From Flavobacterium aestivum (GTDB lineage: Bacteria; Bacteroidota; Bacteroidia; Flavobacteriales; Flavobacteriaceae), in contig NZ_CP113977.2 of NCBI RefSeq assembly GCF_026870175.2, positions 1,674,001 to 1,738,000 on the forward strand: a stretch of DNA of 64,000 nt, in the 5' to 3' direction. The position numbers and the translations under genes are program-made. Every line of letters starts with the position of its first letter. The first letter of the stretch is position 1. The notes below the pieces were generated by a model. That model did no database searches. It was not told the DNA's origin and saw nothing but the letters and a program-made list of their open reading frames with translations. Shown one piece after another: positions 32,749 through 35,376 of the stretch.

Positions 32749-33993
32749 TTATCCTATTAGTTGGGTGAACAGATCATGTCTTTCGTTGAGATATTGGTAT
32801 TCAAATCCTTTGGTATTCATATTGTTTTTGATGGCATGAATGTCATTTGGATTCTTCAATTCTAACCCAACAACTACCGATCCTACTTCGCGACTATTCT
32901 TTTTGGCAAACTGAAAATAAGTAATGTCATCATCTGGACCTAAGATGTCGTTTACAAACTCTTTTAATGCTCCGGGACGTTGCGGAAACTGGATCATGAA
33001 ATAGTGCATTAATCCTTCATAGAGCAAAGAACGTTCTTTGATTTCGGCAGTTCTTTCGATATCATTGTTGCTACCGCTTACAATGCAAACTACCGTTTTG
33101 CCTTTTATTTGTTCTTTATAAAAATCTAATGCGGCTATGGTCAATGCTCCTGCGGGTTCTACTACCATAGCTTCTTCATTGTACAGACGCAATATTGAGG
33201 TGCATACTTTACCTTCAGGAACTAGTATGATGTCATCCAGGTTTTTTTGGCAAATTTCAAAAGTCAGGTCGCCAACTTGTTTTACAGCCGCTCCATCTAC
33301 AAACTTATCGATAGTATCTAATGCCGTGTTTTTGTTATTGGCAATTGATGTTTTCATCGAAGGGGCGCCTAGTGGTTCTATACCAATAATTTTGGTAGTA
33401 GGACTCAGGTGTTTGAATACAGTCGAAAGCCCGGAAGCCAATCCGCCACCACCAATAGGTACAAATACATAATCGATTGGTTCTTTATAAGTATCCAGAA
33501 TTTCTAAACCAACTGTTCCTTGACCCGCAATGACTTTTAAATCATCAAAAGGATGGATAAATGCTTTGTTGTTTTGTTTGGCATCTGCTACCGCTTTTGC
33601 GTAAGCATCATCAAAGGTATCGCCAGTCAATACAATTTCTACATATTTTTTTCCAAACAACTGTACTTGTTTGACTTTTTGTTTTGGGGTAGTTTTTGGC
33701 ATGTAAATTTTACCCATTATTTTCAAAAGGTGGCAAGAAAAAGCAACGCCTTGCGCATGATTCCCAGCACTGGCACATACGATTCCGCTTTCTTTTTCGG
33801 GATCTGTTAAGGAACTAATTTTGTTATAAGCTCCTCTTATTTTGTAGGATCGAACGACTTGTAGGTCTTCGCGTTTTAGTAAAACAGTTGCTCCAAATTC
33901 TTCGGATAAATTTAGGTTTTCAATCAGGGGAGTAGTGGGAACTACATTTTCTAATTGCTTTTGTGCTTGTTGTATTGCTGTAAATAAAGTCAT
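32749..33993 (-). CDS. ilvA: Threonine dehydratase (threonine ammonia-lyase)
   Basis: 414 residues. PLP fold-II enzyme with the lysine motif LLKREDLQVVRSYKIRGAYN, the Gly-rich PIGGGGLASGLS and CIVSGSNND for phosphate binding. A single short ACT-like regulatory domain follows (SLLYEGLMHYFMIQFPQRPG). It converts threonine to 2-oxobutanoate, the first step of isoleucine synthesis. It lies 31 bp after the ilvN-like gene and is controlled with it by two upstream leader-peptide attenuators. Confidence 0.95.
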   Translation of the reverse strand: MTLFTAIQQAQKQLENVVPTTPLIENLNLSEEFGATVLLKREDLQVVRSYKIRGAYNKISSLTDPEKESGIVCASAGNHAQGVAFSCHLLKIMGKIYMPKTTPKQKVKQVQLFGKKYVEIVLTGDTFDDAYAKAVADAKQNNKAFIHPFDDLKVIAGQGTVGLEILDTYKEPIDYVFVPIGGGGLASGLSTVFKHLSPTTKIIGIEPLGAPSMKTSIANNKNTALDTIDKFVDGAAVKQVGDLTFEICQKNLDDIILVPEGKVCTSILRLYNEEAMVVEPAGALTIAALDFYKEQIKGKTVVCIVSGSNNDIERTAEIKERSLLYEGLMHYFMIQFPQRPGALKEFVNDILGPDDDITYFQFAKKNSREVGSVVVGLELKNPNDIHAIKNNMNTKGFEYQYLNERHDLFTQLIG

Positions 33994-34024: not shown

Positions 34025-34465
34025 TTATAAGGAATTCATTGGTTCTAATTCGGCTATTTTAGTGGCTAATAGTTGGATTGTTTCGTTGTTTGTTTTACTG
34101 GTATAAACGCAATAATCAGTTTCTCGAATAATTGGAAAGGAATTGATAATTGATGTGACTTGTTTTTCTTTTTCGTCAGAATTCGGAAATTTTAACAGCA
34201 GAATTTGGTGAGTAGAAAGCTCAGCTTCAGTCTGTAAATAACATTTAAAAACTTCAATGACTTTTTCCATTTGATATACTATGTTTTGAACTGCTAATTC
34301 TGTTTCAATAAGTGTAATCGTAAAACGATATAAATTTACTGTTTTGCAAAAAAATACCGAGAAGCTGTTTATACTTATTTTTCTTCGAGTCAAAATAAGA
34401 GCTACTTTATTGATTAGTCCTTCCTGTTTTTCACTGAAAAGTGTTATTGTAAATTCTTGTTTCAT
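34025..34465 (-). CDS. Acetolactate synthase small subunit-like ACT protein (ilvN-like)
   Basis: 146 residues. The N-terminal ACT domain is that of IlvN: FTITLFSEKQEGLINKVAL, then ILTRRKISINSFSV, then LYRFTITLIETE, then VIEVFKCYLQTEAE. The C-terminal half is shorter and more divergent than in usual small subunits (about 170 residues). No catalytic subunit gene (ilvB) is in the window. It could regulate an acetolactate synthase encoded elsewhere or act on the threonine dehydratase encoded next. It is the first structural gene after the attenuators. Confidence 0.75.
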   Translation of the reverse strand: MKQEFTITLFSEKQEGLINKVALILTRRKISINSFSVFFCKTVNLYRFTITLIETELAVQNIVYQMEKVIEVFKCYLQTEAELSTHQILLLKFPNSDEKEKQVTSIINSFPIIRETDYCVYTSKTNNETIQLLATKIAELEPMNSL

Positions 34466-34489
34466 TACTGAATGGTTTGTTTTGGTTTT

Positions 34490-34533
34490 AAAAAAAAATA
34501 AAGCCTTTCTCTATTTTGACAGAGAAAGGCTTT
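34490..34533 (-). terminator. Attenuator hairpin 1, before the ilvN-like gene
   Basis: On the minus strand aaagcctttctct pairs perfectly with agagaaaggcttt (13 bp) and is followed by TATTTTTTTT. It lies between leader peptide 1 and the ilvN-like gene, so it must be read through for expression. This is the terminator half of a transcription attenuator. Confidence 0.88.
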
Positions 34534-34557
34534 ATTAGAAAATAGAATCCTGACTCG

Positions 34558-34614
34558 TCATGTGAAACGAATAATGATAATTACTATTATAATAATTGTT
34601 GTTATGTTTTTCAT
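34558..34614 (-). CDS. Ile-rich leader peptide 1 of the ilvN-ilvA operon
   Basis: 18 codons: MKNITTIIIIVIIIIRFT, with nine Ile and one Val codon in sequence. It is followed after 25 bp by a strong terminator hairpin and then the ilvN-like gene. This is the classical arrangement of ribosome-mediated attenuation: when charged tRNA-Ile is short, the stalled ribosome prevents the terminator from forming. No separate antiterminator was drawn with certainty. Confidence 0.85.
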   Translation of the reverse strand: MKNITTIIIIVIIIIRFT

Positions 34615-34623
34615 ATTTGTTTA

Positions 34624-34653
34624 AAATAAAAAACCTCCCGATGTGGGAGGTTT
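34624..34653 (-). terminator. Attenuator hairpin 2, between the two leader peptides
   Basis: On the minus strand aaacctccc pairs with gggaggttt (9 bp, 5-base loop), followed by TTTTTTATTTT. It follows leader peptide 2 by about 45 bp and precedes leader peptide 1, so the operon passes two conditional stops. Confidence 0.85.
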
Positions 34654-34699
34654 CATAAATTGTATATTGATTACTTATTTATATATCACCTCGCCATAA

Positions 34700-34753
34700 T
34701 TATCGAATGATAATTATAATAATAGCAATGATGATGTTAATTAAGTGCTTCAT
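34700..34753 (-). CDS. Ile-rich leader peptide 2 (promoter-proximal)
   Basis: 17 codons: MKHLINIIIAIIIIIIR, with eleven Ile and two Leu codons. It starts 18 bp after a good -7 box and is followed by its own terminator hairpin. Its likeness to leader 1 (MK, Ile run, Arg near the end) suggests that a whole leader-terminator module was duplicated. Confidence 0.85.
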   Translation of the reverse strand: MKHLINIIIAIIIIIIR

Positions 34754-34770
34754 TTCTCTTGTTTAGGCTG

Positions 34771-34798
34771 CAAATGTATAGATTTTTTAGTAATCAAA
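34771..34798 (-). promoter_or_regulatory. Promoter of the attenuated ilvN-ilvA operon
   Basis: On the minus strand TTTG, a 16-bp spacer and TACATTTG match the flavobacterial promoter pattern. The box lies 18 bp before the leader peptide 2 ATG. Confidence 0.7.
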
Positions 34799-34806
34799 GC
34801 AATAAA

Positions 34807-35376
34807 TTAATTTTTCTTTTCTGATTTTTCTTTATTTTGAGCTATTACTGGAGGATATTGAGCTAAAATTTGAGTGGCAAATTCTTTGATTCGTTCTTCT
34901 TTCTTATTGACATCTTGTGTCAAATAACCATTTCCTATTCCTTGCCAGAACAATTCATTCTTTTTAGCATCAATAAAGTCAATATATAATGCACCTTGAA
35001 TAGATGAGCTTACATAAGGATATCCGCCATATCCATAATAAGGATAATAGCCGTATCCCCAACCATAACCCCAGCCATATCCCCAACCGGAATAAACACT
35101 TACGTCTTCATATGATTTGGTGAAAATATTAACTAAAAAATCAGGATTGTCGCTTTTAACAAATCCTTTGGCTAGCATTTGCTCGTCTACAGCACGCAAA
35201 ATTCTTCTTTTATCCAAATCTGAAATTTCAAGCTTATTGATTCCTTCTTTCATATAAGCAAAAGTTTTGTATTTCGTGAAATCTACGGTTTTATCATAAT
35301 CAGCACTCACGGTTATCGAAGAGCATGAAGCTAATGTAAAAAACAGTAGTACTAATAGTGATTGAATTGATTTCAT
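34807..35376 (-). CDS. DUF4136 lipoprotein
   Basis: 189 residues. A lipoprotein signal peptide (LLFFTLASCSS, Cys18 to 20 region) is followed by a DUF4136 domain (VDFTKYKTFAYMKEG, then ILRAVDEQMLAKGFVKSDNPDFLV). A Gly/Tyr/Trp repeat (GWGYGWGYGWGYGYYPYYGY) interrupts it around residues 97-118, and ALYIDFIDAKKNELFWQG closes it. Members are outer-membrane or periplasmic lipoproteins of unknown role. Confidence 0.9.
   Translation of the reverse strand: MKSIQSLLVLLFFTLASCSSITVSADYDKTVDFTKYKTFAYMKEGINKLEISDLDKRRILRAVDEQMLAKGFVKSDNPDFLVNIFTKSYEDVSVYSGWGYGWGYGWGYGYYPYYGYGGYPYVSSSIQGALYIDFIDAKKNELFWQGIGNGYLTQDVNKKEERIKEFATQILAQYPPVIAQNKEKSEKKN

Follow-up and report, generated by a model that had tools for sequence, protein, structure and literature searches.

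Upstream of a gene for a small-subunit paralogue of acetohydroxyacid synthase (AHAS) and of the threonine ammonia-lyase gene ilvA, the chromosome of Flavobacterium aestivum carries two short isoleucine-rich open reading frames (ORFs), each followed by a predicted intrinsic terminator. The locus lies in a stretch of 64,000 nucleotides (nt) of contig NZ_CP113977.2 (positions 1,674,001 to 1,738,000), referred to here as the window; coordinates are positions in this window, and all elements of the locus are on its minus strand. Along that strand the order is -7 box, leader 1, terminator 1, leader 2, terminator 2, the ilvN-like gene (ilvN2) and ilvA. Judged from sequence, the segment 34798-34490 is very probably a serial, isoleucine-specific, ribosome-mediated transcription attenuator that comprises two units behind one promoter. 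The features are as follows.

34771..34799, minus strand: promoter of the flavobacterial type, with the -7 box TACATTTG at 34778-34771 and TTTG at 34798-34795
34700..34753, minus strand: leader peptide 1, MKHLINIIIAIIIIIIR, 10 isoleucine codons of 17, stop codon TAA
34687..34695, minus strand: purine box 1, GGCGAGGTG, candidate 5' strand of antiterminator 1
34623..34654, minus strand: intrinsic terminator 1, GAAACCTCCC-ACATC-GGGAGGTTTTTTATTTT, -15.1 kcal/mol, z -5.2
34558..34614, minus strand: leader peptide 2, MKNITTIIIIVIIIIRFT, 9 isoleucine codons of 18, stop codon TGA
34549..34560, minus strand: box 2, TGACGAGTCAGG, which starts with the stop codon of leader 2; predicted 5' strand of antiterminator 2
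34529-34517, minus strand: predicted 3' strand of antiterminator 2, CCTTTCTCTGTCA, identical with the 5' arm and loop of terminator 2
34491..34536, minus strand: intrinsic terminator 2; the fold of 34545-34491 has -23.8 kcal/mol, z -7.9
34025..34465, minus strand: ilvN2, AHAS small-subunit paralogue of 146 residues, matched by ACT and AHAS small-subunit models below their cut-offs
32749..33993, minus strand: ilvA, threonine ammonia-lyase, the first committed step to isoleucine (TIGR02079, 623 bits, cut-off 440.55)

The conservation of this arrangement can be followed in relatives. Named bacterial genomes were scanned with an alignment of IlvN2, and among the best 80 of 97 loci 38 have no ilvB in their 4-kb flanks, 41 have ilvB preceding the gene, and one (L085) is limited by a contig end. 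The 38 named loci, the window and two close relatives form the 41-locus set used below. Leader 1, terminator 1, leader 2 and terminator 2 follow one another in that order in 41/41 loci, with an isoleucine-rich leader of 5-10 isoleucines at both positions throughout. Summed over the set, isoleucine accounts for 330 of the 727 codons of leader 1 and 313 of the 755 codons of leader 2, and leucine plus valine for 46 and 51, respectively. Between leaders of equal length, the synonymous fraction of single-base codon differences is higher in frame than out of frame, both for leader 1 (0.44 versus 0.33 and 0.18) and for leader 2 (0.46 versus 0.21 and 0.15). The DNA pattern of the isoleucine run, searched in the window's own genome, matches these two leaders and one low-complexity place.

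Both terminators stand out from their surroundings. Their folding energies were reached by 0/200 shuffles, a terminator scan of 34400-34900 returned exactly these two (shuffle mean 0.1), and both are present in 41/41 loci. Terminator 1 keeps 96.0% of its pair cells in the 40 distinct rows of the 41, a value that falls to 85.8% when the pairing is slid by one column, and changes on both sides occur at two pairs (three cells); in terminator 2, 95.2% of pair cells are kept, and the 13 cells in which both sides have changed belong to a single pair.

The promoter assignment follows the flavobacterial pattern, with TTTG 16 nt upstream of TACATTTG, at about the -33 position; TANNTTTG is the sigma-A -7 consensus as given in the accessible part of PMC9723704. 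This box occurs within 70 nt before leader 1 in 41/41 loci (mononucleotide shuffles, 331/8200), between the start of leader 1 and that of leader 2 in 2/41, and between the start of leader 2 and ilvN2 in 0/41. Since it is universal before leader 1 and rare further down, one transcript seemingly crosses both units, and a second, internal promoter was dropped from consideration. A sigma-70 style promoter scan gave nine matches against a shuffle mean of 3.2 and was uninformative in the AT-rich DNA of this phylum. A DUF4136 gene (34807-35376, same strand) ends 8 nt before the promoter TTTG, and a terminator scan found none between the two, so that part of the transcription of the leaders may originate further upstream. 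The preliminary description of this DNA, made from its letters alone, had named two tandem isoleucine-rich leaders, two hairpin terminators with T-runs and a single promoter ahead of both units, and had made conservation of the leader frames a touchstone. The leaders and terminators are present base by base, and leader frames, terminators and promoter box alike recur in 41/41 loci; together with the candidate antiterminators described next, they lend strong support to its reading of a double, in-series attenuator.

Candidate competitors of the terminator hairpins can be drawn in both units. For unit 2, RNAalifold applied to the 41 sequences without the 3' arm of terminator 2 predicts a helix of UGACGAG..AGG with CCU..CUC.GUCA; in single-sequence folds CUC pairs with box 2 in 41/41 and both C residues of the arm pair with GG in 40/41, and the helix forms in 173/2050 shuffled-spacer controls. 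Within the ilvN2 set 95.0% of its cells are paired, against at most 55.8% when the helix is slid. The eight bases of the 5' arm of terminator 2 (CCTTTCTC; CCUUUCUC) are invariant in 41/41, and of the eight columns facing them six are invariant and two vary. Column 66, opposite the 5' arm of terminator 2, is A in 25 loci, T in 13 and C in three, and the terminator pair is broken in 16/41; an invariant 5' arm that faces a varying column is as expected if the arm has a second partner. For unit 1, box 1 pairs with the 5' arm of terminator 1 (at least 4 pairs) in the minimum-energy fold of 41/41 loci, compared with 283/2050 shuffled spacers. The predicted competing pairing is well supported in unit 2 and less so in unit 1.

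Covariation of antiterminator 2 was assessed over 79 distinct units, 37 from ilvN2 loci and 42 others, with duplicates removed, which were picked by a pattern with a fixed GRG box and CTC arm that left the tested flanks free. The flanks of GAG/CUC change together among them (UGAC-xGUCA, GAGU-AUUC, AC-GU, UGAU-AUCA), and the pairing extends into the flanks by a mean of 3.08 bp versus 2.21 permuted (0/5000); for the 34 distinct combinations the values are 2.26 versus 1.63 (0/5000). The evidence for covariation is good but not final. Several points weigh against it, and with it against the attenuator reading as a whole. The covariation is seen solely once main-operon units are added and rests on comparing leader classes, these classes are related in groups, so that kinship inflates the test, the 79 units were preselected for the GRG box and CTC arm, and at least two units missed by the pattern fit worse, namely L179, whose flanks do not pair, and unit 3 of L165, which has TAG instead of GAG. 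With these two put back, 0/5000 permutations were as good, but the L165 segment was two bases off in that comparison, so that the 79 units carry the argument. Within the ilvN2 set alone one cell is changed on both sides, much as in shuffles (89/500); the helix is nearly constant there, and covariation is weak for that reason. For antiterminator 1 covariation was not found, 2759/3000 permutations being at least as good. The covariation that the preliminary description had proposed to seek in relatives is accordingly seen for the flanks of unit 2 over the 79 units and was not found for unit 1. The GAG to TAG change of the L165 unit, a natural variant, affects the box and is not in frame with the leader; the usual stop is lost there, and the leader frame runs to 27 residues.

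Related series occur in many flavobacteria. An exact unit-2 pattern proved too strict (5/398 genomes) and a covariance model took its place. The unit-1 model finds 130/398 same-genus genomes at E <=0.003 and the unit-2 model 125/398 at E <=0.01, many of them weakly, and these genus counts are partly a product of construction, the models having been built from these very loci, which counts against reading them as independent support. Strong unit-2 matches, defined as those of at least 55 bits, number 58 in 55 genomes. With upstream unit-1 places taken from the genus-wide model search and from the fetched regions at E <=0.1, a unit 1 lies at most 250 nt upstream on the same strand for 57 of the 58, the exception being on a 3.8-kb contig, and the spacing between units 1 and 2 is 34-49 nt in 55 of the 57 pairs and 75 and 131 nt in the other two. 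In forty fetched regions the series precedes ilvN2 alone, ilvN2-ilvA, ilvB-ilvN-ilvA (L170, L192) or ilvD-ilvB operons; four of the forty, all with weak unit-2 matches (L186, L187, L189, L190), yielded no ilv gene.

Longer arrays exist as well. Six same-genus genomes (L160, L162-L166) have three units in series before an ilvE-like gene, consisting of an Ile/Val leader with a CCTCCC-type terminator followed by two near-identical isoleucine units (B); in L162, L163 and L165 the Ile/Val leader is taken to start at TTG, and L161 has two near-identical isoleucine units without the Ile/Val unit. The gene behind the L160 triple is the branched-chain transaminase gene ilvE (PRK06606, 313 bits, cut-off 279), followed by ilvD, and the ilvE-like genes of the other triples are so named from a start similar to that of the L160 gene. 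A family-wide search matched 11/349 genomes at E <=5e-4, two of them of this genus, and inspection by eye showed triples in three further genera (L200, L201, L202); at the weak family-level matches L204-L208 no leader was seen. Predicted attenuators in series, up to three of them, are thus a recurrent feature upstream of flavobacterial ilv genes, and the double arrangement, which the preliminary description had called unusual, is not peculiar to this locus.

Individual loci add some variety. In another genus, L203 (G689) has from 1459 onward a single Ile/Leu/Val leader-like ORF, MKSNAILIYVIRNRSC, and a terminator, at most 318 nt before an ilvD-like start. In L194 (G174) about 85 nt of extra sequence, which looks like a small insertion, separate terminator 1 from leader 2, and both units are intact. 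Genome G311 contains three separate double-attenuator ilvN-like loci (L175, L176, L177), and behind one of these lies a diverged ilvA (60% identity). In L201 (G513, 1512-2498) the ilvE-like frame that follows the triple is interrupted and read as two ORFs.

Several parts expected of a leader-peptide attenuator are recognisable in the window and its relatives: leader ORFs with codon runs for the regulated amino acid in 41/41 loci (translation being predicted), isoleucine as the product of the pathway to which ilvA and the AHAS small-subunit paralogue belong, a predicted intrinsic terminator between each leader ORF and the structural genes and, in unit 2, a predicted antiterminator that competes for the 5' arm and that a ribosome standing at the end of the leader could cover. 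From these elements, their order and their conservation we infer that the leaders are translated, that ribosomes stall in them and that transcription terminates behind them. While charged tRNA-Ile is plentiful, the ribosome would get to the leader stop and cover the box, the terminator would form and the polymerase would stop; when isoleucyl-tRNA is short, the ribosome would stall in the isoleucine run, so that the box would be free to pair with the terminator's 5' arm, and the polymerase would read through. After readthrough of unit 1 the polymerase would meet unit 2, where the test would be repeated. As a matter of arithmetic, the fraction of polymerases that reach the genes would be the product of two readthrough probabilities, and we propose that the need for two successive readthrough events lowers leakage and steepens induction. 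The output would be IlvN2, joined by IlvA in the clade of the window.

Other explanations of the series have to be set beside this one. The most serious, though an unlikely one, is that one unit does the work and that the other is left over from a duplication or from an earlier operon structure, with no steeper response as a consequence. Units evidently do duplicate, as the near-identical tandem B units of the triple arrays illustrate, and the missing covariation of antiterminator 1 fits such a remnant; a dead unit should decay, however, and in spite of their divergence the 41 loci all retain two isoleucine-rich leaders and two terminators, while the spacing of the units is tightly kept in the 55 of 57 pairs mentioned above. 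It is far less probable that the ORFs encode small hydrophobic membrane peptides or toxin-like peptides beside which the terminators are coincidental. Isoleucine-rich peptides of 16-19 residues do resemble small membrane peptides, and constraint in frame would fit any coding role, but the genes read behind complete units are ilvN-like, ilvA, ilvB, ilvD or ilvE-like, pairing is predicted between the terminator arm and the box at the leader stop, and main-operon leaders mix isoleucine and valine, as sensors should. Control by a T-box or another known riboswitch class can be given next to no credence. Tandem T-boxes are known in amino-acid operons, yet within the window every Rfam family stays below its gathering score, and the 24 sub-threshold Rfam matches in 34400-34860 (E <=1) include no T-box. 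The top one at the locus is Phe_leader (31.1 bits, gathering score 55), itself a leader-peptide attenuator; the 24 were judged to be due to chance or composition, with Phe_leader at least the same kind of element.

IlvA, whose match also exceeds the PRK08639 cut-off, is encoded by a single gene, the next best match in its own genome being 38 bits at 26% identity. The host genome of 4.58 Mb has one ilvA, one ilvB (next match 23% identical) and two ilvN. The ordinary ilvN, encoding IlvN1, is located elsewhere, in a leuA-leuB-ilvD-ilvB-ilvN-ilvC cluster, and ilvN2 is not adjacent to ilvB. The main ilvD of the same genome is preceded by a single leader, MKLIINLILIVSVIVITTYGKGLV, that mixes isoleucine, leucine and valine, with a CCTCCC-type terminator (L003, 4350-4640), a region that the unit-1 model matches. 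IlvN2 scores below the NCBIfam equivalog cut-offs (46.5 bits versus 119; 41.3 versus 56.9). The preliminary description had the downstream genes as ilvN-like and ilvA: this holds for the window, whereas in 37 of the 38 named relatives the ilvN paralogue has no ilvA within 4 kb of it (tblastn, E <=1e-8), and "ilvN-like" is to be amended to a diverged AHAS small-subunit paralogue in a genome that keeps an ordinary ilvN elsewhere. The two-unit ilvB-ilvN-ilvA operons of L170 and L192 belong to genomes whose IlvN (L069, L070) keeps Asn11 and Gly14, two residues of the valine site considered below, and their position behind the same two units suggests that ilvN2 arose in an ilvB-ilvN-ilvA context, with a presumed later loss of ilvB. 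Among the ilv operons of the survey, that of L122 (Flavobacterium davisii) has ilvD and ilvB matches in several pieces, which suggests broken genes in the main ilv operon, and operons in records titled Sphingobacterium thalpophilum (L072) and Rhizobium sp. (L091) have IlvN proteins that group with Flavobacterium; these records are probably mislabelled or mixed bins.

By structure prediction IlvN2 can be assigned with confidence to the ACT-domain AHAS small-subunit fold. The AlphaFold2 model has a mean predicted local distance difference test score of 85.2 and its best Foldseek neighbours are 6vz8, 2pc6 and 2f1f; the template-modelling score over the whole chain is poor (about 0.49), and 83 columns fit the IlvN structure 5ypp with a root-mean-square deviation of 2.7. 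In a tree with 57 IlvN1 rows (seven of the 64 being absent), 40 of the 41 IlvN2 fall on one side of a supported branch (95/100), and L124 forms a long branch of unsure place. Valine-site positions are given in E. coli IlvH numbering, anchored on 2pc6 and on E. coli 2f1f, in whose chain residues 12 and 15 correspond to Asn11 and Gly14, one higher than in the papers' numbering. E. coli IlvH binds valine via Asn11 and Asn29 together with Leu9, Leu16 and Val35, according to the part of PMC11893703 that cites Kaplun 2006, and in the available text of PMC13158618 valine inhibition is reported to be affected most strongly by G14 and the two residues after it. Both Asn11 and Gly14 are retained in 63/64 IlvN1, the other being L010, from another family of the order, with His at position 11, versus 0/41 IlvN2. 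Position 11 of IlvN2 is Asp in 36, Lys in three and Asn in two; position 14 is Gly in 16, Arg in 15, Gln in three, Asp in three (L103, L109, L115), Lys in two, Ala in one and Ser in one; Asn is found at position 29 in 5/41 IlvN2 versus 56/64 IlvN1. The IlvN2 of the window has K, G and S at positions 11, 14 and 29.

The gene itself seems to be maintained. The ilvN2 frame is open in 41/41 loci, and the ratio of nonsynonymous to synonymous substitution rates (dN/dS) is 0.10-0.37 in 12 of the 13 close pairs compared; the thirteenth gives 0.46 in an ungapped comparison at 0.56 identity that probably runs across an indel, and a fourteenth planned pair, with L195, was left out because its start was not found. 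ilvN2 thus appears to be under purifying selection. These values, together with the confident ACT-fold model and its AHAS small-subunit neighbours, make it rather improbable that IlvN2 is a pseudogene in decay that has travelled with old leaders and has no valine-sensing function, an explanation that draws on its fast evolution, on the loss of valine-site residues and on the C-terminal shortening in the window clade, where the protein has 146 residues compared with 173 in IlvN1.

IlvN2 is proposed to be a valine-insensitive AHAS subunit induced by isoleucine starvation. Valine-induced isoleucine starvation has been studied in E. coli K-12 (PMC7066862, in the portion used here), and a sensor that reads almost only isoleucine fits such a subunit because valine blindness would be useful when valine starves the cell of isoleucine, just as it fits the other target because IlvA commits carbon to isoleucine. 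During starvation IlvN2 would replace the normal IlvN, leaving valine unable to shut off the single AHAS catalytic subunit. Valine-resistant AHAS mutants resemble some IlvN2 in having the Gly14 equivalent changed to Asp (C. glutamicum, PMC8709942, where the accessible part reports resistance for G20D/I21D/I22F; Methanothermobacter design G20D/V21D/L22F, PMC13158618, likewise as accessible); these mutants were engineered or selected, whereas the IlvN2 proteins are natural paralogues beside an intact IlvN1. Two observations pull the other way. Gly14 is kept in 16/41 IlvN2, that of the window included, and Corynebacterium glutamicum IlvN, as portrayed in the available parts of PMC11893703 and PMC8709942, is sensitive to valine although it naturally has Asp in place of Asn11, so that Asp11 alone is no proof of insensitivity. 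The whole scheme is offered tentatively and is on balance doubtful: flavobacteria would use a modular series of two or three isoleucine attenuators as a digital-like switch which, in the ilvN2 lineage, delivers a valine-blind IlvN2; once valine had shut off AHAS and starved the cell of isoleucine, both attenuators would open and IlvN2 would displace IlvN1 on the single IlvB, with isoleucine synthesis resuming despite excess valine. If true, the regulatory subunit would be exchanged instead of a second isozyme being deployed, and IlvN2 is a concrete candidate for escape from valine-induced isoleucine starvation with a single AHAS catalytic subunit.

Textbooks usually present leader-peptide attenuation with one unit per operon, and the ilv leaders of E. 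coli are classical leader-peptide attenuators. Classical ilv leaders are single units with mixed branched-chain codons, whereas the flavobacterial series have two or three units and those of the ilvN2 type would read nearly isoleucine alone. A natural series of this kind would allow the sharper-switch effect of a repeated graded attenuator to be tested directly, and the difference in unit number, two before ilvN2 and three before ilvE-ilvD-ilvB, provides a ready-made comparison. The leader of C. glutamicum ilvBNC is similar in that ilv genes are preceded by a short ORF with many codons for the regulatory amino acids, as part of an amino-acid-responsive attenuator (PMC8709942, from the section available), and the accessible text of PMC9723704 mentions clues to attenuation by leader peptides upstream of F. 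psychrophilum amino-acid operons. In a limited open-access literature search none of the papers listed was recognised as describing such serial leader-peptide attenuators, whether for isoleucine or in flavobacteria, and nothing came up on AHAS small-subunit paralogues or G14D. The series for one and the same amino acid, its twofold and threefold forms and the paralogue with an altered valine site that follows it were absent from the results of that limited search.

Arrangements with two elements in series are known from other systems. In mefA/msrD two leader-peptide attenuators act on one operon in what has been termed a double-lock system; it differs in sensing antibiotics and in that the second attenuator regulates msrD exclusively (PMC10314930, as far as its accessible text goes). 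The tandem riboswitches of B. clausii metE likewise place two sensing elements with intrinsic terminators in series, but their ligands, two different signals, are bound by RNA directly, without leader translation (PMC3641672, in the passages available). The closest precedent is Salmonella mgtCBR (Lee and Groisman 2012, PMC3641672), in which, according to the same partial text, two short ORFs with their own attenuators stand in series before the same genes; these ORFs answer to ATP and to proline, independently and additively, and their stem-loops are unlike intrinsic terminators. In the series of the window, by contrast, both leaders are isoleucine leaders, both are followed by predicted intrinsic terminators, and the genes behind them belong to the pathway that is sensed.

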